Below are positions 28,920 through 52,226 of a stretch of 64,000 nt of DNA, in pieces. Position numbers and translations under genes: made by a program. The stretch's first letter is position 1, and each line of letters begins with the position of its first letter. The notes beneath the pieces were generated by a model, which worked only from the letters and a program-made list of their open reading frames with translations, did no database searches and was not told the origin of the DNA. Source of the DNA: Gemmatimonadota bacterium (GTDB lineage: Bacteria > Gemmatimonadota > Gemmatimonadetes > Gemmatimonadales > Gemmatimonadaceae). Location of the stretch: assembly GCA_020161135.1 (NCBI GenBank), contig JAIUOB010000002.1, forward strand, positions 620,001-684,000, given 5' to 3'.

Positions 28920-31760
28920 ATGACCGGACCGTTTCGCCTGCGCGTGTTGGGTGGCATGCAGCTCCTCGCGCCAGCCGACGCCGCCGACGACGAACTGGCA
29001 CGCGCTGCGCTGCTCGAGAATCGGCGGCGGGTGCTGGCCGTGCTCACCGTGCTCGCGGTGTCGGAGCGCCCGCTCACGCGCGACCAGCTCGCCGACTTCT
29101 TCTGGGGCGACAGCGAGCCGGCGCGCGCGCGACACTCGGTGGCCGAGGCGTTGCGCCTGCTGCGGCGCGTGCTCGGCGAGGAGGCGATCGCCGCGCGCGC
29201 CGCCGACCTCGCGCTCGCGCCCGGCGCGCCACTCGAGGTGGACGCCGTGCAATGCCTGGCCGCCCACGCCCGCGGGGATCACGCCGAGGTGGTGACACTC
29301 TACCGCGCCGATTTTCTCGACGGCGTGTACGTGGAGCGCGCCCCGCGGTTCGACGGTTGGGTGGATCGCCAGCGCGACACGCTCCAGCGCGCGTTCCTCG
29401 CCTCGTGCGCCGCCGAGTGCCGTCGCCTGATCGAACACGGTGAACACGCGGCGGCGGTTGCCGTTGCGCGGCGCTGGTTGGACGCGGCGCCGCTGTCGGC
29501 AGAGGCGGCAGCAGCGTGGATGCGCGCGCAGCTCGCGCCCGGCACCGCCGAAGCCGTTCACGTCGCTCGTCAGCGGTTCATGCAGCATGCGTCGCTGTTG
29601 GCGTCGGAGTATGACGTACGCCCCGCTCCGGAGCTGGAGCAGCTGCTCGATGACGCCGAGCGTGATCTCGCGCGTCGCGCGCCCGAAGAGGCGCGCGGTC
29701 GACCGGTGACGAACCCGGTCGCACGGCCGCACCCGGCGCCCGAACCCGAGGCACCCACCGCGTTCGATGGTCCGGTGTCGGCGGCATCGATCGACTCGGC
29801 AACGGCCACCGCGCCCACACCCCGACCGCGACGCAGGATGCCCGGCGCCGCGCTCCTGGTCCTGCTCATGGCGTTGCCGCTGGTGGTGGCGTTGTGGCGC
29901 TCCGGCGCAGTCCCCGGCGTGGGTGGCCTCGGTGGCGGTGCGTCCGCGTCCCAGCGCACGCTCGTGGTCGCCGACGCCGACATCGCCACCGCCGACACGC
30001 TGCTCGGCCATGCCATCACGCTCGCGATGACGACGGCGCTGGCGCAGAGCACGGTGGTGCAACCCCTGCCGCCGAGTCGCGTACGCGAGCTGCGTCGCCT
30101 GACCACCGACGCGACCGACTCCCTGTCGCGTCATGGTCCGTTCACCGAGACGCTCGCGCGCACGGTAGCGGCCCGCGCGGGCGCTGCGGTGGTCGCGGTG
30201 CCGGTCGTGGTGAGCATGGGCGCGCGCTACCGCGTGTCGCTGCGCGTGGTGAACGCCACAGACGGCAGCAACCTCACCATCGCACAGTCGGACGTGGTCG
30301 ACTCGGGGGCCTTGCTCGACGCCGTCGATGAGGTCGTCCGGCGCAGCGACCGGGCGTTGGGTGCCTCGCGCGCGGCGCTCGCGGCGGCGCGCCCGTTGCC
30401 CGATCTCACCACCGCGTCGTTGCCGGCGCTGCGACTCTTTGCCCAAGGGGCGCGCGCCTTTGCGCGGCAGGACTTCCTGACGGCGGCCCGGCACTATCAG
30501 GCCGCGCTCGCCGTCGACTCCACGTTCGCGCTCGCGTGGATGGGGCTCGGCCGCGCGCGCGTGATGCTCAACCTGCCGCAGGCGGCCGACACGGCGCTTG
30601 CCGCCGCGCAGCGGTACGCGGCGAGGCTGTCCGAGCGGGAACGGCTGCTCGTGCGCGTGGCGGTTTTGCGCGCCAACGGGCTCGCCGACAGTGCCATACA
30701 GGTGCGCGGGGCATGGCTGGCGGCCCACCCCGACGACCGGGAGATGCTGGAAGCTCAGCTCTACGACCTGCTCACCCGCGGGCGCCCGGGCGAGGCGGTC
30801 GCGGTGGGCGAGCGTCTGGTCGCGGTGGACTCGGCCAACGAGAACGTGCTAGCCAATCTCGCGCTCGCCTACCCCGGCGAGGACCCGGCAACACGCCAGC
30901 GCGCCGTGGCGCTGTACGCACGCGCCTTGCAGCTCGACCCGTCGCAGGTGCGCAATGTGATGACTCCGCAGCTTTACGGCGGTCTCCTCGTGCGCGCCCA
31001 GTTGTACGACAGTGCCGCACGACTCTTCCAGTCGATCGGGGCGAGCGATCAACGCCTGCACGGACGCGCCATGCGGGCGCTCGGGCAGATGGAGCTGTTG
31101 CGCGGTCGTCCCGGGGCGGCCGTCGCGCCGTTCGAAGCGGCGGTGCGGGCCAGTCGCGCGCAGTCCGATACGTTGTCGTGGGTGCGGTCTCGGCTGTGGC
31201 TGGCCAGCGCGCTCCATATGGTCGGCGACAGCACCCGGGGACGCGTGCACGTCGACTCGCTCGCCAGGGAAGCGGTGCGCCTGCACGAGCCGCCCGTGCA
31301 GTACTGGATCGGCGTGTTTCTCGCGCGGCTCGGGCGGGTGACCGAGGCGCGCGCCGTGCTCGGCGCGCTCGAGCGCAGCATGGTGCCCACCTCCCGGACC
31401 CATGCCGCCGATCGCGCGCTGCTCGCCGCCGAGATCGCCGTTGCCAGCGGGCAGACGCGCCGCGTGGCGCTGCCGGCACTGGCCGAGGCGGCGCGAGGGG
31501 ACAGTTCGACGATCAGTGATGAAACGCTGGCGTGGGTCACCCTGCAGGCGGGTGACACGAGCAGCGCCAGCGGGCTGGGGCGGGCAATCGTCGCCCGGCG
31601 CCACGGCTTTGGGTTCGAGGGATGGCTTGCCGCCGCGCGCGCCCGTGCGTGGCTCGACCGCATCGGCGCGGCGACGCGGCGACGCGGCCGTAAGACTGCA
31701 GCGTTGCGCGGTTTCGGGTGGGTCGCCCCCGATCAACTGGCCCGTTTGACGACGGGATGA
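28920..31760 (+). CDS. membrane-tethered BTAD-type transcriptional regulator with periplasmic TPR region
   Basis: The 946-residue protein begins with a SARP-like winged-helix region (RLRVLGGMQLLAP, then LTRDQLADFFWGDSEPARARHSVAEALRLLRRVLG, given here in part) and a BTAD helical domain to about residue 245. It continues with a Pro/Ala-rich linker, one membrane helix at about 306-324 (GAALLVLLMALPLVVALW), a region typical of these proteins (LRVVNATDGSNLTIAQSDVV), and a TPR-like helical array from about 490 to the end. DNA binding would be cytoplasmic and the TPR region periplasmic, a ToxR-like layout. It precedes the PEP-CTERM gene by 112 bases and may control it. Confidence 0.85.
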   Translation: MTGPFRLRVLGGMQLLAPADAADDELARAALLENRRRVLAVLTVLAVSERPLTRDQLADFFWGDSEPARARHSVAEALRLLRRVLGEEAIAARAADLALAPGAPLEVDAVQCLAAHARGDHAEVVTLYRADFLDGVYVERAPRFDGWVDRQRDTLQRAFLASCAAECRRLIEHGEHAAAVAVARRWLDAAPLSAEAAAAWMRAQLAPGTAEAVHVARQRFMQHASLLASEYDVRPAPELEQLLDDAERDLARRAPEEARGRPVTNPVARPHPAPEPEAPTAFDGPVSAASIDSATATAPTPRPRRRMPGAALLVLLMALPLVVALWRSGAVPGVGGLGGGASASQRTLVVADADIATADTLLGHAITLAMTTALAQSTVVQPLPPSRVRELRRLTTDATDSLSRHGPFTETLARTVAARAGAAVVAVPVVVSMGARYRVSLRVVNATDGSNLTIAQSDVVDSGALLDAVDEVVRRSDRALGASRAALAAARPLPDLTTASLPALRLFAQGARAFARQDFLTAARHYQAALAVDSTFALAWMGLGRARVMLNLPQAADTALAAAQRYAARLSERERLLVRVAVLRANGLADSAIQVRGAWLAAHPDDREMLEAQLYDLLTRGRPGEAVAVGERLVAVDSANENVLANLALAYPGEDPATRQRAVALYARALQLDPSQVRNVMTPQLYGGLLVRAQLYDSAARLFQSIGASDQRLHGRAMRALGQMELLRGRPGAAVAPFEAAVRASRAQSDTLSWVRSRLWLASALHMVGDSTRGRVHVDSLAREAVRLHEPPVQYWIGVFLARLGRVTEARAVLGALERSMVPTSRTHAADRALLAAEIAVASGQTRRVALPALAEAARGDSSTISDETLAWVTLQAGDTSSASGLGRAIVARRHGFGFEGWLAAARARAWLDRIGAATRRRGRKTAALRGFGWVAPDQLARLTTG

Positions 31761-32815: not shown

Positions 32816-35800
32816 CTACAACGGCTGCACCAGCTCGGTGCGCAGCGACGGGCCGAACAGCGCGCCGATCTGCGCGACCTTGAGCTGCTGGCGCGTGAGG
32901 TACGTGGAGGGCACCACCCGCAGCCCGTTGTCGGACGCCACATCGAAGCGTCCCGCGTAGCGCACGCCGCGCCGCACGACCTCGAGCGTGACGCGCGCCT
33001 GGAGCGCGCCGGCGCCCACCACGTCGACGCCACCCAGTCCCGGCTTGACGTTGAGCGCGAGCTCCTGCCCCTGCGCCACCGGCACGCCCTCGAGGTCGAG
33101 ACGCAGTCGGTCGCGGCCGGCACCCCAGCGGGTCTCGATGCGCAGCGTGAGCCGCTGATCGCGACTCGACGTGATGCGCACGGTGCCGGTCTGCGTGCCG
33201 ACATCCGCCAGGCGGATGCGATGCTCGTCGCCCGGCATCGACGCGCCGCCGACGAGCACCTCGGTGAGCCCCATCTTCAGCGCGTAGTGCAGCGTGCCAC
33301 GCCGCACGCCGCGCAGCGTGTGGACCACCGTGTTGCCCGTGGGCAGCGCGGGCGCGGCCGCCCGCAGGGCATCGACACGCACCGCGGCGCCGGCCGCATT
33401 CGAAAGCGTGGCACCGGTACGCGACGCGGCCCCCTGCAGCAGGTGAATCATGAGGCGTTCACCGTTGGCGGACACGAACGCACTGTTGGCCTCGATGGTG
33501 CGGCGGATGCGCGCAGGCGCCCACTGACACAGGTACTCGCGCAACGTGAGCCGCTGCCAGTCGGTGCCCGTGCGTCGATCGGGGCGCGTATGCCGCCCCA
33601 CCACGCGCGGACGCGGTCGCAGGTGCAGCTCCGCCGGCGAGATGCCGCGCGGACGTGGCGGCTTGTCGAAGCGCGGCGGCACCGGCTTCTCCCCCTCGCG
33701 CTCGACGGCGCACCGGTCGGTGTGCCCATCGAACCCGCGGAACGGCACGAACTTGTCGGCCACCGAGCGCCCCGACTGGAGACGCGCCACGGCGTCCGCG
33801 CCGAACGCATCGAGGTCGACGCCGTTGTCATCGGTGAGGCTCACCGTCTCGCCATCGTCGCCGACGATGAGGATGGCACCGGACATGAGCAGCATGAGCG
33901 CCTCGAACACCGGCGTCCGGGGCTGCTCGCACAGCACGCTGTAGGGCATGTAGTGCAGCCGCCCACCTGACCACTCGGCGCCGGTGTACGTGCTGCTGCC
34001 CACGTACCGGAAGGTGTTCGCGTCGGGGTCGACCTCGACGACACGCCGTGCCGGCGTCTGCGGCGAGGGGAAGTTCGGATCGCGGACGAAGATGCGCCAC
34101 GGCTTCGCACTGTCATCCCACCCGACGGGAAGGATGCAGTGCGGGGCGCCGCTGAAGTCCCAGTTCTGCGAGAGGCAGAGCACGGGATCCTCGCCGCGGG
34201 CGTGTGCACGGCGCGTCGCGCGGAAGACATCGACCGGGTCGTGCGTGTTGCCGGAGACGAACTGCCCCGCGAACCACCAGATGGCCGACGCACCCACCTG
34301 GTACTGATGCCGCACGTTGAACTCGCCGCGCACCGCCTCCCACTGGTTGGTGGCGTCGGCGAAGCGGTCGAGGGGGAGGCGCAACAGGCTGCGATGCTTG
34401 TAGCTGTTGATGGCTTCGAGTGACATGCCGAAGCAGTTGCCGCTCTTGGCGAGCCCCTTCACGGCGGCTTCGTAGAAGATGGCCGCCAGCCAGTCGGTGG
34501 GGTCCCACCACTCGGTGTCGCTGTCGACGTCGCGAAACGCCGTGGCGTACTGCGCCCAGGTGAGTTCGGGCGTGCCGCGATTGTCGACCCCCCACCAGCG
34601 CTGGTTGTCGGTGAGCAGCGCCTCGTTCACCCGGGGCGACACCGACCAGGTGATGGTGTTGATGTGACTGAAGCTGCCGCTGCTGAACAGTCCGGTGCGG
34701 TTGCCACGCAGCCCCCACGCGTTGGCCATCTCGAGGCGGTACTCGTAGTAGCCCAGGTGGTCGTCGTCGTCCGGCCAGTCGCTGTCCCACACGTCGAGCG
34801 TGAGCGTGATGACGCGGTCGGCGCGATTGGGCATGATGCCGTTCGGCGCGACGTTGAGGGTGCGATTGACGGTGTAGACGTTGCGGCCATTCGAGTCGCC
34901 GCTGCCGGGGATGCGCTCATGATGGATGACCGTCCCGTTGTCCTCGACACCCGCATGCACGTAGACGTCGTTCGACCCGCGCCCCCATCCTTCGCTCTCC
35001 TTGGTGTCGAAGCGACCGAGCGTGATGTCGAACGGCTGGCAGACGTACGTCTCGCCCAGGCTGCCGAACCAGACCACGCTGCCGCGCTGGAAGGTGTTGT
35101 AGCGCGCTCCCGCCGCGCCGGGCACGTCGCCTTCATCGCTGGTGGGAAAGCCGAGGGGGCCGGCGGGCCCACCGGCGTTGCGCCAGGTCGTGCGGATGTC
35201 GCCGTACACTGCGAACGCGCCGCTGGCGCCGCTCCAGTAGATCGTGCAGCGCTCGAACTCGCTGCTGCGCCCGAGGACGGTCGCGCCGTCGCGCACGTCG
35301 CCTTCGTTGGTGGTGGGGAAGCCCCACGCCTGCACTTCGCCGGTGGCGAGGTAGTGCGCGAGGATCGCACCATGCACCTCGAAGGCACGCGGGGCGCCGG
35401 CCCGATGATACAGGTGCCCACCCTGGAAGCGTTGGCGCAAACCACCAGGCACCGGCTCCTCACCGCCGACGGGCAGGCCGATCCAGGCGCTCTCGCCACC
35501 CGCCTCGTAGTCCACCCACAGTTGGCCGACCACCGCGCGCACGCCCGTGGCGCGCGACCAGTACAGGCCGCTCCGGCTGAAGAGGTTGCGTCGACCGCCA
35601 CCGCGCGCTGTGTCGATCTCGTCACTGATGAGGTGACCGAGCGCCATGCGCTGCGGATACGCCCAGTACGCGTCGCGAATCGCGCCGTGCATCTCGAAGG
35701 CGAGGCCCACGGCGTCCGCGTACATGAGTGTCACGCCGGCGAACTGCTGGATCCACGCGCCACTGGGCGCGTCGTAGACATAGCCGGCGGTCGGGGCCCC

Positions 35801-36502
35801 GGCGTTGAGCGTCCCGCGCAGTTCCTCCTCCTTGTAGGTGAGGTACCACTGCGGATGTGCACGCCGCTCATCGAGCGGGGCCTCGAGCGCGATGGGGAGG
35901 TCGGAGAGGAGCTGCAGCGCCGCGACGGAGCCGACGAGTGCATGACTGCTTCCATCCAGTGCGACGCCAAGCCGCAGCAGGTCGCCGTTGGCCGGCGCGA
36001 GCGTGCCCGCGGGATACGCATGCACCGTGCGCACGACATCGTCGATGCTGACGGCCAGCGTGTCCGTGTCGTACACGATGTCGGCGGCGTACCACGTCCC
36101 GACGGTGAGATCGAAGAGGAAGCGCGTGGAGGCGCCGCCCGCATTGGCCACCGCGAGCCCCGGCACCGCCACCAGGTCGAAGTCGCTCGTGCCGGTACCG
36201 GGTTCGACGTGCACCGACAGCGGCAGCGCTCCACACGCGACCAGCGTCTGGCGCGCGGCGGGCTTGGCATCGAGACGGAACACAACGCGCACCGCGAAGC
36301 GATCACGCTGCAGCGTCGCGACCGGCAGGCTCACCGTGAGGCCGCCACTCCCGGCAAACTGCAGCGCACTGGGGAAGCTGCCGAGCGTCGTGGTGCCGGG
36401 CCCCGCGACGACGGTCGCGTTGGTCACCGTGGCGGCGTGTGTCCCGTCCGCATTGGCCGGAGTGAGCGAATCGAGTGTGTAGTCGAGGACCAGTGTGCTC
36501 AT
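32816..36502 (-). CDS. large lectin-like/LGFP-repeat protein with cysteine-peptidase-like domain
   Basis: The 1228-residue protein has no signal peptide. Residues 1-215 look like a LamG/concanavalin-type beta-sandwich (STLVLDYTLDSLTPANADG, FDLTVGTWYAADIVYD). Residues about 225-510 hold LGFP-like repeats, recognised from FEVHGAI and GDVxG patterns with LGFPTSDEGDV and WGFPTTNEGDV. Next come a beta domain and then a papain-fold-like segment: Cys690 in SGNCFGMSLEAI, His788 in GAPHCILPVGW and Asp808/Asn810 in FVRDPN, the order and spacing expected of a C-H-D/N peptidase. The last 400 residues are beta-rich. The ATG at 36502 follows AGGAG by about 6 bases. Likely a surface-acting or injected enzyme; the export route is not visible. 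Confidence 0.7.
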   Translation of the reverse strand: MSTLVLDYTLDSLTPANADGTHAATVTNATVVAGPGTTTLGSFPSALQFAGSGGLTVSLPVATLQRDRFAVRVVFRLDAKPAARQTLVACGALPLSVHVEPGTGTSDFDLVAVPGLAVANAGGASTRFLFDLTVGTWYAADIVYDTDTLAVSIDDVVRTVHAYPAGTLAPANGDLLRLGVALDGSSHALVGSVAALQLLSDLPIALEAPLDERRAHPQWYLTYKEEELRGTLNAGAPTAGYVYDAPSGAWIQQFAGVTLMYADAVGLAFEMHGAIRDAYWAYPQRMALGHLISDEIDTARGGGRRNLFSRSGLYWSRATGVRAVVGQLWVDYEAGGESAWIGLPVGGEEPVPGGLRQRFQGGHLYHRAGAPRAFEVHGAILAHYLATGEVQAWGFPTTNEGDVRDGATVLGRSSEFERCTIYWSGASGAFAVYGDIRTTWRNAGGPAGPLGFPTSDEGDVPGAAGARYNTFQRGSVVWFGSLGETYVCQPFDITLGRFDTKESEGWGRGSNDVYVHAGVEDNGTVIHHERIPGSGDSNGRNVYTVNRTLNVAPNGIMPNRADRVITLTLDVWDSDWPDDDDHLGYYEYRLEMANAWGLRGNRTGLFSSGSFSHINTITWSVSPRVNEALLTDNQRWWGVDNRGTPELTWAQYATAFRDVDSDTEWWDPTDWLAAIFYEAAVKGLAKSGNCFGMSLEAINSYKHRSLLRLPLDRFADATNQWEAVRGEFNVRHQYQVGASAIWWFAGQFVSGNTHDPVDVFRATRRAHARGEDPVLCLSQNWDFSGAPHCILPVGWDDSAKPWRIFVRDPNFPSPQTPARRVVEVDPDANTFRYVGSSTYTGAEWSGGRLHYMPYSVLCEQPRTPVFEALMLLMSGAILIVGDDGETVSLTDDNGVDLDAFGADAVARLQSGRSVADKFVPFRGFDGHTDRCAVEREGEKPVPPRFDKPPRPRGISPAELHLRPRPRVVGRHTRPDRRTGTDWQRLTLREYLCQWAPARIRRTIEANSAFVSANGERLMIHLLQGAASRTGATLSNAAGAAVRVDALRAAAPALPTGNTVVHTLRGVRRGTLHYALKMGLTEVLVGGASMPGDEHRIRLADVGTQTGTVRITSSRDQRLTLRIETRWGAGRDRLRLDLEGVPVAQGQELALNVKPGLGGVDVVGAGALQARVTLEVVRRGVRYAGRFDVASDNGLRVVPSTYLTRQQLKVAQIGALFGPSLRTELVQPL

Positions 36503-36706
36503 GTCATGCTCCTGCAGCGCGGCGTCGCGAGGGAACCAATGGGGCGCGGTGCGAAGAACATGCGGTGCCCCGATCGCGTTGGCCATCATTCAGCAGGCAC
36601 AGGTGCAGACATTTCGCGGTAATGGGACCGCCACAAACGCGTCACGGTCGAGCACGGTGGATTGCCCACACGTGTCGACCGTGATGTACCGCACAGCGCC
36701 GCGCGA

Positions 36707-41471: not shown

Positions 41472-41981
41472 ATGCACTCGCTGCACGACCTGCTGGTCCA
41501 CGACCTGCAGCACCTCTACTGCGCCGAACAGCAGTTGGTCTCGGCGTTGACGACCATGGCGGCGGCCACGGCCTCGCCGCGACTCGCGACCGCGTTCAAG
41601 GACCACTTCCGGCAGAGCCCGCGCCACCTGTCGCGCCTCGAGGAGTGCTTCGCGCTGCTGGGTACGGCACCCGGTAGCTGCCCGTGCGCCACCGTGGGCG
41701 GGCTGCTCGCGGACGTGCAGGCCATGACGGTGCGGCCGGGCACGGGCGTCGTGCGGGACGCGGGGCTGGTGGGATCGGCGCAACGGGTCGGGCACTACAC
41801 CATGGCCGCGTACCGCACCGGTGTGGCCCTGGCCGACGCCCTCGGTCAGGACGGTGTGGCCGCGCTGCTGCGCGAGACCGTAAGCGAGGAAGAGGCGGTG
41901 AGCCGGCGGTTTGCCACGATCGTCACCGACGATATTCATCCGGCAGCGCTGCAGAGTACGCAGGTCCTCGCGACGGGGTGA
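41472..41981 (+). CDS. DUF892/YciF-like ferritin-fold protein
   Basis: The 169-residue protein matches the YciE/YciF family: HDLLVHDLQHLYCAEQQL at the N-terminus, then CPCATVGGLLADVQAM, and a second helix pair (GHYTMAAYRTGVALADAL and ETVSEEEAVSRRFA). These are di-iron-type four-helix bundles linked to stress and membrane damage, with no proven reaction. Glu/His ligands appear at E20, H62-type and E137/E138 positions, approximately. No signal peptide. It is followed by 320 gene-free bases before pcs. Confidence 0.82.
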   Translation: MHSLHDLLVHDLQHLYCAEQQLVSALTTMAAATASPRLATAFKDHFRQSPRHLSRLEECFALLGTAPGSCPCATVGGLLADVQAMTVRPGTGVVRDAGLVGSAQRVGHYTMAAYRTGVALADALGQDGVAALLRETVSEEEAVSRRFATIVTDDIHPAALQSTQVLATG

Positions 41982-42302: not shown

Positions 42303-45300
42303 ATGCCGCATGATCAGGCCATGACCGCCACGCCACCCGTCACCGCTGTGCCCCGCGCTGCCGATGCGCGCGCGGCCGCCACCAATCCGATCCGCACCCG
42401 CGACGATTGGCAGGCCATGCGCGAGGCCTGCGAGCGCGATCCGGGCGCCTGGCACGGCGCGATCGCCGCCGAGACGCTGCACTGGTATGTGCAGGCTGCC
42501 AACGCGTGGCTCACTCGCGAGACCGACGGCGCGTGGCGTGGGTTCGATGCCGCCACCGGTGCGCCGGTGACGTGGCGCACACCCGGCGACGCGCCGTTCA
42601 CGCCGTGGGCGACGGCGTTCGACGCGCACGACCCGCCGTTCTACCGCTGGTTCGTCGGGGCGCGCACCAACGCCTGCTTCAATGAAGTGGACCGGCATGT
42701 GCTCGCCGGCCACGGCGCCGAGCCGGCGTTCCTCGTGGAGGGCGACCGCTGGGACCAGAGCCTCGATGGCGGACGCGGCGGTCCGGTGGTCGCGTGGCCC
42801 TACACCCGCCGCGCGCTGCTCATCGACGTGGCACGATGCGCGGTGGCGTTGCAGCAGCTCGGGCTCCGCACCGGTGATCGCATCGCGCTCAACCTGCCCA
42901 ACATCCCCGAGCAGATCGCGTGGACCGAGGCCGCCAAGCGCCTTGGCATCGTGTACACGCCGGTGTTCGGCGGCTTCTCCGACAAGACACTCGCCGATCG
43001 CGTGTGTGATGCCGGCGCTCGTGTGGTGATCACTGCCGACGGGGGCTATCGCAACGCGCAGATCGTGCCGTTCAAGGCGGCGTACACCGATCCGGCGCTC
43101 GACCGCTATGTGCCGGTGCCACGCGCCATCGCGGCCGTGCGCGAGGCGGCCGTGGCCCTCGCGCTCGGCGCCGACACGGTCGAGCGCCTGGTGGCCGAGG
43201 TGACGCGCGCGCTGGCCGGCGAGATCACCGTCGAACGGAGCGACGTGATGCGCGGCGTGGGGCGTGCGCTCGCCGCGCTGGTCGAGGTGGGCGCGCTCGA
43301 TGCCGCGGCCGCGAGTGCCGCGCGCACGGGATGCGCGCGCGCCCTGGTGCAGGTGACGGGCGATGTGGAGCATGTCGTCGTGGTGCGGCACACCGGACAG
43401 GCCGACGTGCCCTGGCGTGCGGGGCGCGACCGCTGGGCACACGAGCTGCTGCGCGACGCCGAGGACGCGCTGCTGGCATCGCTGCGCACCGCGGGGAGCA
43501 CGGTGGACAGCATGGATGCGCTGCGCGGGCTCGACGACGCCACGCTCGTGCGCACGCTCTGGCAGGTCGTGCCGCCGCTGCCGGTGGATGCGGAGTTCCC
43601 GCTGTTCTTCATCTACACGTCGGGCTCCACCGGCAAGCCCAAGGGCGTGGTGCACGTGCACGGCGGCTGGCTGGCCGGCGTGGCGCACACCATGCGCGTG
43701 TCATTCGACGCGCAGCCGGGCGACGTGATGTATGTCGTGGCCGACCCGGGGTGGATCACCGGGCAGTCGTACATGATTGCCGCTGCGCTGGCCACGCGCG
43801 TGACGTCGGTGCTGGCCGAGGGCGCGCCGGTGTTCCCGAGCGCGGGGCGTTTCGCGTCCATCATCGAGCGCTACGGCGTCACGATCTTCAAGGCCGGCGT
43901 GACGTTCCTCAAGTCGGTGATGACCGACCCGCAGAACCTCGAGGATGTGCGGCGCTATCGCGTGGACGGCCTGCGCGTCGCAACCTTCTGCGCCGAACCG
44001 GTGTCGCCAGCGGTGCAGCAGTTCGGCATGGAGCACCTGTGCCCGCAGTACATCAACTCTTACTGGGCCACCGAGCATGGCGGCATCGTGTGGACGCACT
44101 TCTACGGCAACGACGACTTCCCACTGCGTGCCGATGCGCACACCTGGGCGCTGCCGTGGGTGATGGGCGACGTGTGGCTTCCCGACGGCGAGCCGGATGC
44201 CACGGGGCGCGTGGCCGCGCGCCGCGCCGCCGATGGTGAGAAGGGCGAGATCGTCATTCGTGCACCGTATCCGTACCTCGCGCGCACCATCTGGGGGAAC
44301 GCCGAGGGCTTCGTCGTGCGCGACGGCAGCGTGGACGCCGCGTGGCGCGGTGACGGCGATCGCTATCGCCAGACGTACTGGGCGCGGTGGCGCGACACCT
44401 GGGCGTACACGCAGGGCGATGTCGCCATTCGTCACGCCGACGGTAGTGTATCGCTGCACGGCCGCAGCGATGATGTGATCAACGTGAGCGGCCATCGCAT
44501 GGGCACCGAGGAGATCGAGGGGGCGATCCTGCGCGACAAGCAGGTCAACCCCGACTCGCCGGTGGGCAACGTGATCGTCGTGGGTGCACCGCATCGCGAG
44601 AAGGGGCTCACGCCACTGGCATTCGTGGTCCCGGCGCCCGGGCGTCGCCTCACGATGGACGACCGCAGGCGTCTCACCGAGCTCGTGCGGCAGGAGAAGG
44701 GCGCGGTGGCGGTGCCCGAGGAGTTCCTCGAGGTGGCCGCGTTCCCGGAGACACGCAGCGGCAAGTACATGCGGCGCATGGTGCGCGCGCTGGTCGACGG
44801 CGAACCGATCGGCGACACGACGACGCTGCGCAACCCGGAGAGCATCCCGGCGCTTGCACACGTAATCGAGCAGTGGCAGGCGGTGCAGCGCATCAGCGAC
44901 GCGCAGCGGGTGCTGGTGTCGTGGCGCTACTTCCGCGTGCACTACCACCCGGTGCAGCCGGGCGCACGCCTGGCCGTGGTGACCGTCACCAACCCGCCGG
45001 TCAACGCGCTCAACGAGCGCGCGCTCGACGAACTGTGCACCGTGGTGGAACACCTCGCGCGACAGGACGACGTGCGGGCCGTCGTGTTCACCGGCAGCGG
45101 CAGCAGTTCGTTCGTGGCCGGCGCCGATGTGCGGCAGCTGCTGGAAGACGTGCACACGCTCGAGGAGGCGCTGCCTCTGCCGAACGTGGCGCACCTCGCC
45201 TTCCGTCACATCGAGCGCATGCTCGCGCGCCTCGGCAAGCCCTGCATCGCCGCCATCAACGGTGTGGCGCTGGGCGGCGGGCTCGAGTTCGCGCTGGCCT

Positions 45301-47801
45301 GTCATTATCGCATTGCCGAGCCGGTGGCGCTGTTCGGTCAGCCGGAGATCCGCCTGAACCTGCTCCCCGGCTACGGCGGCACGCAGCGCCTCACGCGCCT
45401 GCTCGCCGATCGGGACGGCGCTGAAGGCTTCGTGCAGGCCATGGAGATCATCCTTGGCGGCCGACAGCTCGACGCCGACGACGCACTTTCTGCCGGTGTG
45501 ATCGACGAGGTCGTCTCCGGCAGCGACCACGCGGTCGCGCGCGCGGCGGCGCTGGTGCGCGAATGGCTCGCGCAGGACGGGCGCACCGCGTTCGGCACGC
45601 ACCTCACGGTGGTGGCCGAGCGGCGGAATGCGTGGGAGCGGCCGGGACATCTCGATGTCGACGCACTCCTCACGCTCGCCCCCATTGCCCGCCTGCTCGC
45701 GCAGGCCGAGCGCGTGGGGCGCACGCACGCGACGACGCGCATCCTCGATGCCGTGCGCACCGGGTGGCGTGATGGACTCGAAGCGGGGCTCGCGCGCGAA
45801 GCACGCCTGTTCGCGGAAGCGGTGGTCGATCCCGCGGGCGGCAAGGCTGGCATCCGCGCCTTCTTCGACCGTCGCAGTGCGCCGCTCCCCACACGACGTC
45901 GCACCGTCACCATCGACGACGCGGCCGACCTCATCGAGCGCGGTGAGCTACTGCCCGTCGGCGCCCCGTTCCTGCCGGGCGTCACGCCCATTCCCGCCTG
46001 GCAGTACGGCCAGGGCGTCGAGCGCGACGCCGACACCGGTGCGCCGGTGCATGGCCTGCCCAAGGATGTGGAGCGCGAGCTGCTCGTGCCGGTGGACACC
46101 CCGTCGCCCAACGAGGCGCTCGTGTACGTGCTGGCCTCCGAGGTGAACTTCAACGACATCTGGGCCATCACCGGCATTCCGGTGTCGCCGTTCGACAATC
46201 ACGACCAGGACTGGCAGGTGACCGGCTCCGGTGGCGTGGGCCTCATTGTCGCACTCGGCAGCGAAGCCAAGGCCGAAGGACGGCTGCGCGTCGGCGACCT
46301 CGTCGCGATCTACTCGGGGCAGAGTGAACTGCTGTCGCCGTTCGCGGCGCGCGACCCCATGTCGGCGGACTTCCGCATCCAGGGCTACGAATCGCGCACG
46401 GGGAGTCACCAGCAGTTCCTCGCCGTGCAGGCGCCGCAACTGCACCCGGTGCCACAGGACTGCACGCTCGAGGCGGCGGGTTCGTACATCCTCAACCTCG
46501 GCACCATCGTGCGCGCGCTGTTCACCACGCTGCGCATCGAGCCGGGGCGCACGATGTTCGTCGAAGGGGCCGCCACCGGCACGGGGCTCGAGGCGCTCAA
46601 GGCGGCGTCGCAGCACGGTTGCGCGGTCACGGGGCTCGTCTCGAGCGCCGAACGCGGCGCCGTGGTGACGCAGTACGGTGGACGCGGGTGGATCAACCGC
46701 GCCGAGCCGGCGTGGCGCGACGCGTTCCGCATGGTGCCCGACGGAGCCGATGCGATTGCGGCGTGGGAAGCCGAGGGCGCAGCGCTGTGCGACGCGTTCC
46801 GCGCGCAGCATGGCGGTCGTCTCGCCGACTATGTCGTGTCGCACGCCGGCGAGCGCGCCTTCCCGCGCTCGTTCCAGCTCCTCGCCGAGGGCGGCGCGCT
46901 CACCTTCTACGGCGCCTCGTCGGGCTATCACTTCACCTTTGTCGGCAAGCCCGGCGCCGTGGCCCCCGACGTCATGCTGCGCCGCGCGGCTCTCCGCGCC
47001 GGCGAGGCGGTGCTCGCGTACTACGGCGTGGGGCTTCCCGACAGCGAGTTGGTGGACACCGACGGACTCGTGGCCATCGAGGCCATCGCGGCGGCGGGGG
47101 CGCGCGGCTGCATCGTGGCCCGCACCGATGCGCAGCGCGAGTTCGTGCAGTCGCTCGGCTTCGGCGACCGCATTCGCGGCGTCATCTCCATCGAGGAGTT
47201 GCAGCGCCGGCAGGGCGACGACTTCGACTGGCCGTGCACGATGCCGCCGCTTCCCGACGTGCGCCGCGACTCGGCAGCGTTCCGCGATGCCGTGCGCGCC
47301 TTCCAGGAGCGCACGCTCAAGCCGTTCGGCACGGCGGTGGGGCGTGTCCTGCGCTCGGCCGACAACCCGCGCGGCGCGCCATCGGTCATCGTCGAACGTG
47401 CGGGGCACGATGCACTTGCCGTCTCCACGTCGCTGGTGCAGCCGTTCACCGGGCGCGTCGTGTACTTCGAGGCCATGCAGGGGCGTCGCTACAGCTTCTA
47501 CGCGCCGCAGGTGTGGACCCGGCAGCGTCGCATCCTCATGCCCACCGCGAGCATCCTCGGCACGCATCTCTGCAATGCGTACGAAGTGGTGCGCATGAAT
47601 GAGATGGTCGACGCCGGGCTGCTCGAGGTCACTGCGCCCACCGTGGTGCCGTGGAACGGCCTGGCCGAGGCGCACCAGGCGATGTGGGACAACCGGCACA
47701 CCGGTGCGACGTACGTGGTGAATCACGCGCTCCCCGCCCTCGGGTTGCGCACCATCGATCAACTTTACGAAGCCTGGGCTGCGCAGGAGCCGTCGCGATG
47801 A
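42303..47801 (+). CDS. pcs: propionyl-CoA synthase (trifunctional)
   Basis: The 1832-residue fusion matches Chloroflexus-type propionyl-CoA synthase along its full length. Residues 1 to about 870 are an AMP-forming 3-hydroxypropionyl-CoA ligase: YTSGSTGKPKG at 438-448, GRSDDVINVSGHRMGTEE, and Lys821 in ETRSGKYMRR. About 885-1150 is an enoyl-CoA hydratase-type dehydratase (SFVAGADVRQLL near 940, NGVALGGGLEF near 988). About 1185-1832 is a zinc-type MDR acrylyl-CoA reductase (VNFNDIWAITGIPVSPF, GAATGTGLEALKAA near 1420). It converts 3-hydroxypropionate, CoA, ATP and NADPH to propionyl-CoA, keeping reactive acrylyl-CoA inside. The start could be 42303, 42321 or GTG 42273. The stop overlaps mcr. 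Confidence 0.95.
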   Translation: MPHDQAMTATPPVTAVPRAADARAAATNPIRTRDDWQAMREACERDPGAWHGAIAAETLHWYVQAANAWLTRETDGAWRGFDAATGAPVTWRTPGDAPFTPWATAFDAHDPPFYRWFVGARTNACFNEVDRHVLAGHGAEPAFLVEGDRWDQSLDGGRGGPVVAWPYTRRALLIDVARCAVALQQLGLRTGDRIALNLPNIPEQIAWTEAAKRLGIVYTPVFGGFSDKTLADRVCDAGARVVITADGGYRNAQIVPFKAAYTDPALDRYVPVPRAIAAVREAAVALALGADTVERLVAEVTRALAGEITVERSDVMRGVGRALAALVEVGALDAAAASAARTGCARALVQVTGDVEHVVVVRHTGQADVPWRAGRDRWAHELLRDAEDALLASLRTAGSTVDSMDALRGLDDATLVRTLWQVVPPLPVDAEFPLFFIYTSGSTGKPKGVVHVHGGWLAGVAHTMRVSFDAQPGDVMYVVADPGWITGQSYMIAAALATRVTSVLAEGAPVFPSAGRFASIIERYGVTIFKAGVTFLKSVMTDPQNLEDVRRYRVDGLRVATFCAEPVSPAVQQFGMEHLCPQYINSYWATEHGGIVWTHFYGNDDFPLRADAHTWALPWVMGDVWLPDGEPDATGRVAARRAADGEKGEIVIRAPYPYLARTIWGNAEGFVVRDGSVDAAWRGDGDRYRQTYWARWRDTWAYTQGDVAIRHADGSVSLHGRSDDVINVSGHRMGTEEIEGAILRDKQVNPDSPVGNVIVVGAPHREKGLTPLAFVVPAPGRRLTMDDRRRLTELVRQEKGAVAVPEEFLEVAAFPETRSGKYMRRMVRALVDGEPIGDTTTLRNPESIPALAHVIEQWQAVQRISDAQRVLVSWRYFRVHYHPVQPGARLAVVTVTNPPVNALNERALDELCTVVEHLARQDDVRAVVFTGSGSSSFVAGADVRQLLEDVHTLEEALPLPNVAHLAFRHIERMLARLGKPCIAAINGVALGGGLEFALACHYRIAEPVALFGQPEIRLNLLPGYGGTQRLTRLLADRDGAEGFVQAMEIILGGRQLDADDALSAGVIDEVVSGSDHAVARAAALVREWLAQDGRTAFGTHLTVVAERRNAWERPGHLDVDALLTLAPIARLLAQAERVGRTHATTRILDAVRTGWRDGLEAGLAREARLFAEAVVDPAGGKAGIRAFFDRRSAPLPTRRRTVTIDDAADLIERGELLPVGAPFLPGVTPIPAWQYGQGVERDADTGAPVHGLPKDVERELLVPVDTPSPNEALVYVLASEVNFNDIWAITGIPVSPFDNHDQDWQVTGSGGVGLIVALGSEAKAEGRLRVGDLVAIYSGQSELLSPFAARDPMSADFRIQGYESRTGSHQQFLAVQAPQLHPVPQDCTLEAAGSYILNLGTIVRALFTTLRIEPGRTMFVEGAATGTGLEALKAASQHGCAVTGLVSSAERGAVVTQYGGRGWINRAEPAWRDAFRMVPDGADAIAAWEAEGAALCDAFRAQHGGRLADYVVSHAGERAFPRSFQLLAEGGALTFYGASSGYHFTFVGKPGAVAPDVMLRRAALRAGEAVLAYYGVGLPDSELVDTDGLVAIEAIAAAGARGCIVARTDAQREFVQSLGFGDRIRGVISIEELQRRQGDDFDWPCTMPPLPDVRRDSAAFRDAVRAFQERTLKPFGTAVGRVLRSADNPRGAPSVIVERAGHDALAVSTSLVQPFTGRVVYFEAMQGRRYSFYAPQVWTRQRRILMPTASILGTHLCNAYEVVRMNEMVDAGLLEVTAPTVVPWNGLAEAHQAMWDNRHTGATYVVNHALPALGLRTIDQLYEAWAAQEPSR

Positions 47802-50800
47802 GTGAATCCATGCAGGACCGCAGTAGCGATCGCCGACGCGTACCTCGCGGGCGCCTCGCCGGCAAGGTCGCGCTCATCACGGGTGCGGCGGGGAACATCG
47901 GCACCGAGATCACGCGGCGCTTCCTGCAGGAAGGCGCGACCGTGGTGATGACGGGACGCAACAAGGCCAAGCTCGACGCCGCGCGCACGGCGTTGCGCGA
48001 CGCGATGCATGTGCCGGCGTCACGTCTCGTGGTGCTCGCCATGGATGCCGCCGAGCCGGGGCAGGTGCGGAGTGCCATCGCGCAGTTGCTGGCACAGGTG
48101 GGGCGCATCGATGTGCTGGTGAACAATGCCGGCACCGCGGGCCCCAAGTGTCGGCTGCTCGACCTGCCGCTCGATGCCGACGACCTGGCTGCGCTGGCCG
48201 AGCGCGGGCTCGTGGAGTCGGAAACGGTGAGCGCCGCCGCACGCAACCTGCTCGGGCTGGGGTGGAACCTGGTGCGCGCGCTCGCGCCGCATCTCGAGGC
48301 CGGCGCGTCGGTCATCAACGTGTCCACCATCTTCTCGCGCACGCAGTACTACGGCCGTGCCGCGTACGTGGTGCCCAAGGCGGCGCTCAACACCTTCTCG
48401 CGGCTGCTGGCGGCGCAGTTGGGGCCGCGCGGGATTCGCGTGAATACGGTGTTCCCCGGGCCCATCGAGTCGCCGCGCATCCGTACGGTGTTCGCGGCCA
48501 TGGACGCGCTGCGCAAGGTCGCCGCCGGGCAGACGGCCGACGACTTCCTCGGCATGATGACACTCACGCGCAACCCGGCACTCACGCGCGTCGCCGAGGC
48601 GAGCACCGTGCCGGCGGCGGCGGATGTGGTCGCGCCGGCCAAGGGGTTCCCGACGGTCGCCGACGTGGCCAACACCATCGTGTTCCTGGCCAGCGACGAC
48701 GCCGCCGCCATCAATGGCCACAATCTCGAGGTCACGCACGGCATGACCGTGCGGCAGGAGTCGCGCAGCACCTGGGTGTCGCGCCCCGAGTTGCGCACGG
48801 TCGATGGCACGGGGCTGTGCGTGCTGGTGGCGGCGGGCGACCAGGTGGCCGACGCGCTCGCGGTGGCACGGGTGCAGGCCGGCTGTGGCGCCAACGTGCG
48901 CCTCACGCTCGGCAGTGAGGAAGGCGTGCGCGCCGCCGAGGAGGCGCTGGGGCACGAGCCGCACGACGCGCGCATCCGTGTGGCACTGCTCGACCGCACG
49001 CGCGAGGAAACCGTGCGCGCGTTCTTTGACGCGATGGCGGCGGAGGAGGTGACGCTGCACGGTGCGATCATCATGCCGGCGTACGGGGCATGGCGCTTCC
49101 GCGGCGACTTCGTGTCACTGTCGGACAGCGACGTGGGCGCGTTCCTCGACGGCGAGATTGCCGGCATGATGGCGCTCGCGCGCGCGTTGACGCGCTGCTG
49201 GCAGCAGGCGACGGGCCTCACCAGCGACCCGCGTGTCGTGTTCCTCTCCAATGGCGACGATGGCCAGGGGAACGTGTACGCCGACGTGCTGCGCGGCGCC
49301 GTGGAGCAGCTCTGCCGTGTGTGGCGCGACGAGTCGGAGTCGCAGCAGCTCGCGGGCGAGCGTCCCCATGTCGAGTGGTCGAATCAGATCATCCGGTGGG
49401 GGAACCGCGATCCGGAGGAAGTGCCGTTCGCCGCGGGGCAGGCCGCGCGCCTGCTGTTCACGCGGCGCCGCATCCGGCAGGTGAACCTCTACCTGCCCGC
49501 GTCGATCATCGAAGCGACGGGCTCGCGACGTGCGATCTTCGGTTGGATGGAGTCGCTCATGGGGCTCCATCTGGGTAAGGTGGCGCTCATCACCGGCGGC
49601 TCGGCCGGCATCGGCGGACAGCTCGGGCGGCTACTGGCCATTGCCGGCGCGCGCGTGATGCTCGTGGCGCGCCGTGCCGACCAACTCGAGGAGATGCGCA
49701 GCGGCATCGTGCGCGAGCTCGAGGACATTGGCTACTTCGGCGCGCACGACCGGGTGCACACGCTTCCCGACATCGACGTGGCCGACGAGGCGTCATTGGG
49801 CCGTGCGGTGGCGGCCACCATGGAGGCCTTCGGGCGCATCGACTATCTCGTGAACAACGCCGGTGTGGCCGGCGCCGAGCAGATGGTGGTGGACATGGAC
49901 GTGGATGCGTGGCGCAGCACGCTCAACGCCAACCTCGTGTCCAACTACTCGCTCATCGAGAAGGTCGTGCCCATCATGAAGCGCCAGGGCACGGGGTACA
50001 TCCTCAACGTGTCGTCGTACTTCGGGGGCGAGAAGTACGTGGCCGTGCCCTACCCCAACCGCGCCGACTACGCCGTGTCCAAGGCGGGGCAGCGCGCCAT
50101 CACCGAGAACTTCGCGCGCTTCGTGGGGCCGGAGATCCAGGTGAACGCCATCGCACCGGGCCCGGTCGATGGTGATCGGCTGCGCGGGACCGGCGGCAAG
50201 CCGGGACTGTTCGCGCGGCGCGGGCGGTTGATCCTCGAGAACCGCCGCCTCAACGCGGTGTACGCCGCGATCATCGAGGCGCTGCGCCAGGGTGCGCAGA
50301 TCGACGTCCTGCTCGAGCTCGTCCGCGGCAACGATGCCGCCGTGCTGGCCTCGCTGCCTGACGCCCCCGCCCCGCTGCGCGCGCTGGGCGAGCGCCTCGC
50401 GAAGGACGGCCGAGCCAGTGAGGACGACGCGTCGAGTCACCGCTACCTCATGCATCGCGGCATCGCGCAAAGGCTCATCGCGCGCCTGCGCCTGGGCGGC
50501 AAGCTGCTCGCCGCGCGCGACGCCGGCGCCGCCTACGACGACGCGTGGCTGGCGGCGATGCCCGAGCCGCCGGAGCCGTTCATCAGCACGCAGGACATCC
50601 GCCGCGAGGCGGACAAGATTGCCAAGGGCGTCGTGGGGATGCTGCACCTGCACAACATGCCCACCGAGGTGGAAGTCGCGCTGGCCACGGTGTTCTTCCT
50701 CAGCGACCGCGCCGTGAGCGGCGAGACGTTCCAGCCGTCGGGCGGGCTGCACCAGGAGCGCACCATCACCGAACGCGAGCTGTTCGGCCGCGCGAAGCCC

Positions 50801-51541
50801 GAGCGCGTCGCGCAGATGCGCGGGCAAACCATCTGGCTCATCGGCGAGTACCTCACCTCCCACCTCGCACGCGCGGCGCGCCTCGCGCTCGAGCAGAGCC
50901 ACGTGGGGCGTATCATGCTGCTGACGCGCACGGCGGAGGCGGGGCGTGAGGTGCAGTCGCTGCTGCGCATCGTGCTGGGCGCCGAGCGCATCGAGAACCT
51001 CGTCGTGGGCGATGCCCTCGAGGCGGGGATGGACCGTGCGTTGCAACTCGGCGGTGCGCCGGCGGCCGTGGTGTCCACACCGTTCACACCGCTGCCGTCG
51101 CAGATCTTCGGCGACGATGGCGCCCCGGTGCTCGACGCGGCCGGCTTCGCGGCGTTGGTGGAGGCGCACCTCACGCACCACTTCCGCGTGGCGCGCAAGG
51201 TGTCGCTGCTCGACCACGTGCGGCTCGTGCTGGTGACGCCCGACGTACCCGTGCGCCCCACGCACGCCGAGTTCGCGCTGGCCAACTTCGTGAAGACCAC
51301 GTTGCACGCGCTTACCGCCACGCTGGGCGTGGAGAACGAGCGGCTCGTGCACAACGTGCCGGTGAACCAGATCAACCTCACGCGGCGTGTGCGCTCGGAG
51401 GAGCCGCGTGACGTGGCCGAGCAGGCCGAGGAGCAGGAGCGGTTCGCCCACGCGGTGCTGCTGGCCAGCGCGCCGCTCCCCGAGCCCGAGGACAGCCGCT
51501 ACAAGGCGCGCATCTATAGAGGGTTGGCGATCACGGTGTAG
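47798..51541 (+). CDS. mcr: malonyl-CoA reductase (bifunctional, two SDR halves)
   Basis: The 1247-residue protein matches Chloroflexus Mcr (about 1220) end to end. The N-terminal half (to about 580) is an SDR that reduces malonate semialdehyde to 3-hydroxypropionate: ITGAAGNIGTEI near residue 28, SDR pair Tyr190/Lys194 in YVVPKAAL. The C-terminal half reduces malonyl-CoA to malonate semialdehyde: LITGGSAGIGGQLGRLL at about 597-613, Tyr758/Lys762 in DYAVSKAGQR, and the terminus RGLAITV. Both cofactor loops and both Tyr-x3-Lys pairs are intact, so both steps should work, with NADPH. The ATG lies inside the pcs stop (ATGA at 47798-47801), so the enzymes are made together and pass 3-hydroxypropionate from Mcr to Pcs. 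Confidence 0.95.
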   Translation: MSESMQDRSSDRRRVPRGRLAGKVALITGAAGNIGTEITRRFLQEGATVVMTGRNKAKLDAARTALRDAMHVPASRLVVLAMDAAEPGQVRSAIAQLLAQVGRIDVLVNNAGTAGPKCRLLDLPLDADDLAALAERGLVESETVSAAARNLLGLGWNLVRALAPHLEAGASVINVSTIFSRTQYYGRAAYVVPKAALNTFSRLLAAQLGPRGIRVNTVFPGPIESPRIRTVFAAMDALRKVAAGQTADDFLGMMTLTRNPALTRVAEASTVPAAADVVAPAKGFPTVADVANTIVFLASDDAAAINGHNLEVTHGMTVRQESRSTWVSRPELRTVDGTGLCVLVAAGDQVADALAVARVQAGCGANVRLTLGSEEGVRAAEEALGHEPHDARIRVALLDRTREETVRAFFDAMAAEEVTLHGAIIMPAYGAWRFRGDFVSLSDSDVGAFLDGEIAGMMALARALTRCWQQATGLTSDPRVVFLSNGDDGQGNVYADVLRGAVEQLCRVWRDESESQQLAGERPHVEWSNQIIRWGNRDPEEVPFAAGQAARLLFTRRRIRQVNLYLPASIIEATGSRRAIFGWMESLMGLHLGKVALITGGSAGIGGQLGRLLAIAGARVMLVARRADQLEEMRSGIVRELEDIGYFGAHDRVHTLPDIDVADEASLGRAVAATMEAFGRIDYLVNNAGVAGAEQMVVDMDVDAWRSTLNANLVSNYSLIEKVVPIMKRQGTGYILNVSSYFGGEKYVAVPYPNRADYAVSKAGQRAITENFARFVGPEIQVNAIAPGPVDGDRLRGTGGKPGLFARRGRLILENRRLNAVYAAIIEALRQGAQIDVLLELVRGNDAAVLASLPDAPAPLRALGERLAKDGRASEDDASSHRYLMHRGIAQRLIARLRLGGKLLAARDAGAAYDDAWLAAMPEPPEPFISTQDIRREADKIAKGVVGMLHLHNMPTEVEVALATVFFLSDRAVSGETFQPSGGLHQERTITERELFGRAKPERVAQMRGQTIWLIGEYLTSHLARAARLALEQSHVGRIMLLTRTAEAGREVQSLLRIVLGAERIENLVVGDALEAGMDRALQLGGAPAAVVSTPFTPLPSQIFGDDGAPVLDAAGFAALVEAHLTHHFRVARKVSLLDHVRLVLVTPDVPVRPTHAEFALANFVKTTLHALTATLGVENERLVHNVPVNQINLTRRVRSEEPRDVAEQAEEQERFAHAVLLASAPLPEPEDSRYKARIYRGLAITV

Positions 51542-51548
51542 CGACCGA

Positions 51549-52226
51549 CTACTTCTTCACGTCGCCGCGACGCGACGTCCAGAACGCCACAAGGCCGCAC
51601 TCGCCGCCCTTCATCACCACGAAGCTGTCCGGGATGCGCCACGGCGACTCGTAGATCTCCACCGCCACCACCGAGGCAGCGCCCCACTGCTGGTCGAGCT
51701 GGGTGAGCGACACCGTGCCCGTGGTGCGGCTGATCCAGACGTTGTCGATGAAGATCTCGGGACGGCAGAAGGGGACGCCCTGCGACGACGCCGCGTCTGC
51801 GGCGAGCGTCGTGCTGCTGCGCGCAACCACCGCGCCTCCGCCCGTCGTACTCCGCGCGGACGAGGGGGACGCGGCCTGACGCGAGATCTCACCGGTAGCG
51901 AGGCGCCGCATCATCAGTGTCGGCGCGTTGTCGGCGAGCACCACATCGTTGCGCCCCGCGAAGAGGTCCTGGAACAGCACGGGCCGCAGCTTGTCCAGGT
52001 CGTCGGGACCGAGGAACACCCCCTTGCCCTTGCGCTGGCGTTCCTCGAACGCGCGCAGGTCGGCGGTGAGGCTGCGACTGTCCAGCACCTCGATGCGCGC
52101 ACGCCGCGACAGCGAGGCGAGGTCGACGGTGCGCACCGTGTCGGGTGCCGCTTGCGCACCGGCGGCGGTGGCGGTGGCGAGCAGGGCGAGCGAGAGCGAC
52201 AGCCGTGTGCGACGGGACATGATCAT
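51549..52226 (-). CDS. secreted stand-alone TonB-plug-like protein
   Basis: The 225-residue protein has a signal peptide (cleavage near AGAQA). Its mature part resembles the plug domain of TonB-dependent receptors as it appears in short Gemmatimonadota proteins: FEERQRKGKGVFLGPDDLDK, PVLFQDLF, then a Cys pair region CRPEIFIDNVW and VVAVEIYESPWRIPDSF ending GGECGLVAFWTSR. No beta-barrel follows, so it is not a receptor. Thr/Ser/Ala low complexity separates the halves. The ATG at 52226 has GGAGG 4 bases upstream; ATG at 52220 is an alternative. It is convergent with mcr (7-base gap) and probably unrelated in function. Confidence 0.65.
   Translation of the reverse strand: MIMSRRTRLSLSLALLATATAAGAQAAPDTVRTVDLASLSRRARIEVLDSRSLTADLRAFEERQRKGKGVFLGPDDLDKLRPVLFQDLFAGRNDVVLADNAPTLMMRRLATGEISRQAASPSSARSTTGGGAVVARSSTTLAADAASSQGVPFCRPEIFIDNVWISRTTGTVSLTQLDQQWGAASVVAVEIYESPWRIPDSFVVMKGGECGLVAFWTSRRGDVKK

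Follow-up and report, generated by a model that had tools for sequence, protein, structure and literature searches.

A propionyl-CoA synthase and malonyl-CoA reductase operon in a Gemmatimonas genome without detected photosynthesis genes

The pcs-mcr operon and its products

The 64,000-nucleotide stretch of DNA analyzed here (the window) carries a two-gene operon on the forward strand. Its first gene, pcs (42321–47801, +), encodes propionyl-CoA synthase, a ligase–dehydratase–reductase fusion, and its second, mcr (47798–51541, +), a bifunctional malonyl-CoA reductase of 1247 aa whose start codon overlaps the pcs stop in an ATGA. The original prediction, made from the sequence without database searches, had described two intact reading frames, Pcs and Mcr, overlapping in this way, and ORF calls, Pfam domains and matches to PDB structures (6eqo for Pcs, 8hi4 and 8hjw for Mcr) bear this out. 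Its 1832-residue Pcs starting at ATG 42303 is confirmed as a reading frame, which is open from GTG 42273, but the start is now placed differently: alignment to the N-terminus of the Gemmatimonas groenlandica protein (MSTLPS...) favors ATG 42321 (MTATPP...), giving 1826 aa. No clear ribosome-binding site was seen at 42303 or 42321.

At 71% GC, the operon matches the window and other parts of the host genome (68–71%). The upstream neighbor of pcs (41472–41981, +) encodes a DUF892 (ferritin-like) protein; it was not found next to pcs at the related loci examined and probably lies outside the Pcs/Mcr system. Downstream of mcr, a gene without a Pfam family (51549–52226, −) sits on the opposite strand and marks the end of the operon. 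Elsewhere, the window encodes a BTAD/TPR protein of 946 residues that weakly resembles a putative peptide-modification cyclase (28920–31760) and a 1257-residue protein with LGFP repeats (32816–36589).

Pcs combines acyl-CoA ligase, enoyl-CoA hydratase and enoyl reductase domains in a single chain (Pfam AMP-binding, residues 177–665; ECH_1, 899–1101; ADH_N/ADH_zinc_N, 1279–1551). It matches PDB 6eqo, the Erythrobacter propionyl-CoA synthase, over residues 40–1839 (E = 0, 2432 bits), and the alignment is collinear with 6eqo residues 23–1843. Motifs common to both proteins include YTSGSTGKPKG (448–458), the SGK lysine (within 827–835) and, in the hydratase, GGGLEFALAC (1001–1010) and GQPEI..GGTQRL (1022–1040), with both glutamates kept.

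Mcr is a full-length four-SDR protein, recognized by Pfam as tandem SDRs, and matches the full-length chains 8hi4 and 8hjw (E = 0, at least 1195 bits over ∼1230 residues). Mutagenesis of the Roseiflexus enzyme has mapped positions at which substitution reduces or eliminates activity (PMC10470521). In the N-terminal half, Thr165-Tyr178-Lys182 together with Tyr172 and Arg175 (Roseiflexus numbering) are matched identically by T177, Y184, R187, Y190 and K194 of the window Mcr. Ser731-Tyr749-Lys753 and Arg746, Arg785, Leu795, Arg799 and Arg1164 in the C-terminal half are likewise all identical in the alignment (window numbering for this half includes S740, R755, Y758 and K762).

Identity to the G. 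groenlandica proteins is 76% for Pcs and 78% for Mcr. The corresponding dN/dS values of 0.16 and 0.15, at a dS of about 1.1, average both lineages. Neither window protein has a longer branch than the phototroph copies (Mcr, 0.12 vs 0.24 in G. groenlandica), and pcs and mcr look maintained under purifying selection. Their domains, catalytic residues, identities of 76% and 78% and dN/dS of ∼0.15 indicate that both proteins are functional enzymes, and chance can be excluded as the source of the full-length matches. The prediction's further points also hold: the identities and operon arrangement through the full-length structure matches, the collinearity end to end with 6eqo for Pcs and with 8hi4/8hjw for Mcr, and the intact catalytic motifs through conservation of all the Roseiflexus-mapped Mcr residues and of the SGK and glutamate motifs of Pcs.

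Pathway genes in the host genome

Enzymes of the Mcr and Pcs families together convert malonyl-CoA, with 3 NADPH and ATP, into propionyl-CoA. We examined other pathway genes in the host, a Gemmatimonas (Gemmatimonadota) with a genome of 4.55 Mb in 8 contigs (the largest at least 1.08 Mb) that is 93.6% complete and in which the window is C7:620001–684000. A methylmalonyl-CoA mutase with its B12 subunit lies with a carboxyltransferase at C1:391.6–396.1 kb. Another carboxyltransferase is at C1:469 kb, and AccA and AccD are also encoded, for four carboxyltransferase genes; the large ones score under the NCBIfam cut-offs, so sequence does not settle which substrate they use. Methylmalonyl-CoA mutase and carboxyltransferases occur in 36 of the 36 panel genomes, Pcs-negative ones included, and are housekeeping functions rather than specific support for a Pcs-Mcr route. 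Two further Gemmatimonas genomes (G022 and G086) appear to be without the type of mutase gene that adjoins the carboxyltransferase in others and have IcmF-like fusions instead.

Targeted searches of the 93.6% complete assembly did not find smtA, smtB, mct, mcl or mch. Queries with G. groenlandica smtB, mct, mcl, mch, pufC and bchL returned as their sole host match a housekeeping CoA transferase with 31% identity; HpcH matches were weak. The type II reaction centre (PF00124), pufC and bchL were not found in the host genome, nor was a rhodopsin as a substitute light system. Such absences in an assembly of 8 contigs at 93.6% completeness are not proof of gene loss. Isocitrate lyase was not found in the host genome either; its absence was rejected as a special sign, being common in the family and without association to Pcs (p = 0.47).

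Judged by the genes checked, the first half of the 3-hydroxypropionate bi-cycle (Pcs, Mcr, carboxyltransferases and methylmalonyl-CoA mutase) appears to be encoded, and the second half was not detected. The original prediction had held that a full autotrophic cycle could not be claimed from the window, a caution upheld by our targeted genome searches, which detected no second-cycle genes. Of the partners it had wanted sought in the rest of the genome, carboxyltransferases and methylmalonyl-CoA mutase are present; Mct, Mcl and Mch were not detected. The host's identity as a Gemmatimonas, the family-wide tie of the operon to phototrophy and the unusual location of this copy go beyond that prediction.

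Link with phototrophy, phylogeny and chromosomal place

Pcs is present in 14 of 148 Gemmatimonadaceae genomes and in 7 of 35 genera, and the type II reaction centre in 30 of the 148 genomes. The two are associated both by genome (reaction centre in 11 of 14 Pcs carriers vs 19 of 134 others; one-sided Fisher p = 1e-6) and by genus (6/7 vs 3/28; p = 3e-4), kinship being ignored in both comparisons. The three Pcs carriers without a reaction centre are the window's own genome, G073, which is an 85% complete MAG, and G052, which has bchL and probably represents a phototroph whose assembly lacks a contig. Within a 36-genome panel, a second-cycle cluster (class III CoA transferases plus an HpcH/HpaI lyase) accompanies Pcs in 11 of 14 carriers vs 2 of 22 other genomes (p = 4e-5), one of these two being a 64% complete MAG. 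The pcs-mcr operon is normally linked to phototrophy in Gemmatimonadaceae.

From its sequence, the cultured aerobic anoxygenic phototroph G. groenlandica TET16 (G098) carries a near-complete bi-cycle gene set (L054:7863–13930 and L057/L058): pcs-mcr and a second-cycle cluster that adds a MaoC-type hydratase (smtA, smtB, mct, mcl, mch).

The usual pcs-mcr site is bounded by a tRNA-Gly/tRNA-Leu pair on one side and an M20 peptidase-asd-lysC-dapB-dapA run on the other (product names assigned from sequence), and is occupied in G. groenlandica, four g24 genomes and one g19 genome. At C1 ∼482 kb, the host has both tRNAs together with the same small ORF, and the peptidase gene comes next without pcs-mcr in between; the host's operon is instead on C7 among unrelated neighbors, showing no synteny with any related pcs locus compared. 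Since the usual site is empty and the operon is on C7, it has either moved or been lost and then re-acquired, and relocation or re-acquisition of a two-gene module is the best reading. No mobile-element scars were seen flanking the operon: there is no tRNA, and no repeat stands out convincingly among high-GC noise.

The Pcs and Mcr trees agree in placing the window and G. groenlandica proteins as sisters, and this pair adjoins g24 and three soda-lake MAGs labeled Gammaproteobacteria. The copies of the g19 genome (G018) instead group with freshwater gammaproteobacterial ones, yet its operon occupies the same tRNA site as in G. groenlandica (L128; G018:C42), explained either by replacement at the site or by outward transfer. 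For Mcr, the AU test rejects a tree that unites all Gemmatimonadaceae copies in one clade (p = 1e-9). Because Gemmatimonadaceae Mcr proteins do not form one clade and some group with gammaproteobacterial copies, these trees, which have no Chloroflexota outgroup, point to transfer between the two phyla in either direction. Two sets of records deserve mention in their own right. In the soda-lake MAGs (L001, L002 and L006), Pcs and Mcr are nested inside the Gemmatimonadaceae clade, through transfer or mislabeled bins. A MAG named Klebsiella pneumoniae (L019, CAMCBU010000008.1) has Pcs and Mcr near-identical to those of freshwater gammaproteobacterial MAGs, and its name is most likely wrong.

A three-gene marker tree, with modest support, places the window species as sister to a Pcs-negative phototroph (G146) and not to G. 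groenlandica.

Proposed role and comparison with known systems

The explanation we favor, and consider probable as a whole, is that the operon has a common ancestor with those of phototrophic Gemmatimonadaceae and encodes functional Pcs and Mcr serving anaplerosis, co-assimilation or as a redox sink. It would not serve autotrophy, because smtA, smtB, mct, mcl, mch and photosynthesis genes were not found. The C-terminal and then the N-terminal half of Mcr would reduce malonyl-CoA to 3-hydroxypropionate with 2 NADPH; the Pcs fusion would activate this product with ATP and CoA, dehydrate it and reduce it with NADPH to propionyl-CoA. With acetyl-/propionyl-CoA carboxylases and methylmalonyl-CoA mutase encoded elsewhere, acetyl-CoA and 2 HCO3− would yield succinyl-CoA. 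The route could thereby refill the TCA cycle during life on acetyl-CoA-yielding substrates in a host where isocitrate lyase was not found, consuming NADPH and fixing bicarbonate. The sequence itself shows gene content, unbroken frames, catalytic residues, purifying selection and the different genomic location; we infer expression, flux and physiological role.

A different main use is possible though rather unlikely: NADPH disposal, supply of propionyl-CoA for odd-chain or branched lipids or polyhydroxyalkanoates, or uptake of 3-hydroxypropionate from the environment. Each acetyl-CoA passing through the route costs 3 NADPH, propionyl-CoA serves as a precursor in general, and assimilation roles have been proposed for incomplete bi-cycles in Actinobacteriota (PMC9802188). 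Against this, the methylmalonyl-CoA mutase and carboxyltransferase genes that would take propionyl-CoA on to succinyl-CoA are present, and 3-hydroxypropionate uptake alone would not need Mcr.

We regard it as unlikely that pcs-mcr is a relic of a lost phototrophic bi-cycle lifestyle, drifting towards loss. The nearest sampled relative in the marker tree, G146, has the reaction centre, so that phototrophy was probably lost in the window lineage, and the usual partner genes of pcs-mcr are missing. However, neither frame is broken across 3,089 codons, every catalytic residue that was checked is kept, branches show no lengthening, and the new place of the operon favors gain or movement with retention over passive decay.

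A complete autotrophic or mixotrophic bi-cycle whose missing genes were lost only in assembly is very improbable: 11 of the 14 Pcs-positive family genomes, cultured G. groenlandica included, have smtA-smtB-mct-mcl(-mch), and the host assembly stops at 93.6% completeness, but the second-cycle cluster and three photosynthesis markers (reaction centre, pufC and bchL) are all absent from 8 long contigs, and the two clusters lie 0.5 Mb apart in G. groenlandica, making a single gap that removed both unlikely.

Beyond the favored role in anaplerosis, co-assimilation or redox balance, we tentatively suggest that pcs-mcr could be a free-standing, transferable acetyl-CoA-to-succinyl-CoA module in a non-phototroph, replacing the glyoxylate bypass and detached from light harvesting and the second cycle, and that G. 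groenlandica, with its near-complete bi-cycle, may fix CO2. At issue is whether carriers of 3-hydroxypropionate enzymes outside Chloroflexota use them for autotrophy or only for organic-acid co-assimilation. Gemmatimonas offers a matched comparison: one member is a phototroph in culture that has almost the whole bi-cycle gene set, and in its close relative only the step from malonyl-CoA to propionyl-CoA was found.

The enzymes themselves are ordinary. Window Pcs shares with Erythrobacter Pcs (6eqo) the three-domain fusion, collinearity over the whole length and the ligase and hydratase motifs, but comes from a different phylum, from a two-gene operon with mcr and from a host in which no photosynthesis genes were found. 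Mcr is a full-length collinear double-SDR protein with the same catalytic residues as the Roseiflexus and Chloroflexus enzymes (8hi4 and 8hjw), although for its C-terminal half 6k8s scores higher (799 bits) than green non-sulfur Mcr (∼763 bits).

Nor is the bi-cycle new for Gemmatimonadota: among 52,515 MAGs surveyed, two from Gemmatimonadales were reported to have all its genes (Garritano et al. 2022, PMC9802188). They share phylum, order and key enzymes with the window, but for them the full gene set is reported, compared with only the first half found here. A study of freshwater phototrophic Gemmatimonadota found carbon-fixation genes in none of its phototrophic MAGs (PMC8547001), the species description of G. 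groenlandica mentions neither hydroxypropionate nor fixation (PMC7844134), and hydroxypropionate goes unmentioned in three phylum-level genome studies. Apparently unreported in the open-licence papers searched are the nearly full set of bi-cycle genes in G. groenlandica, the association of that set with phototrophy, and the detached half-pathway described here. The matched comparison within Gemmatimonas also bears on the view that phototrophic Gemmatimonadaceae have no carbon-fixation genes other than RuBisCO. The added interest of the locus lies in this detached half-pathway and in the gene set of its cultured relative: G. groenlandica TET16 has the nearest relatives of the window genes in the same operon order, but differs in being a phototroph, in having smtA-smtB-mct-mcl-mch and in keeping its operon at the tRNA-Gly/tRNA-Leu/lysine-gene site.
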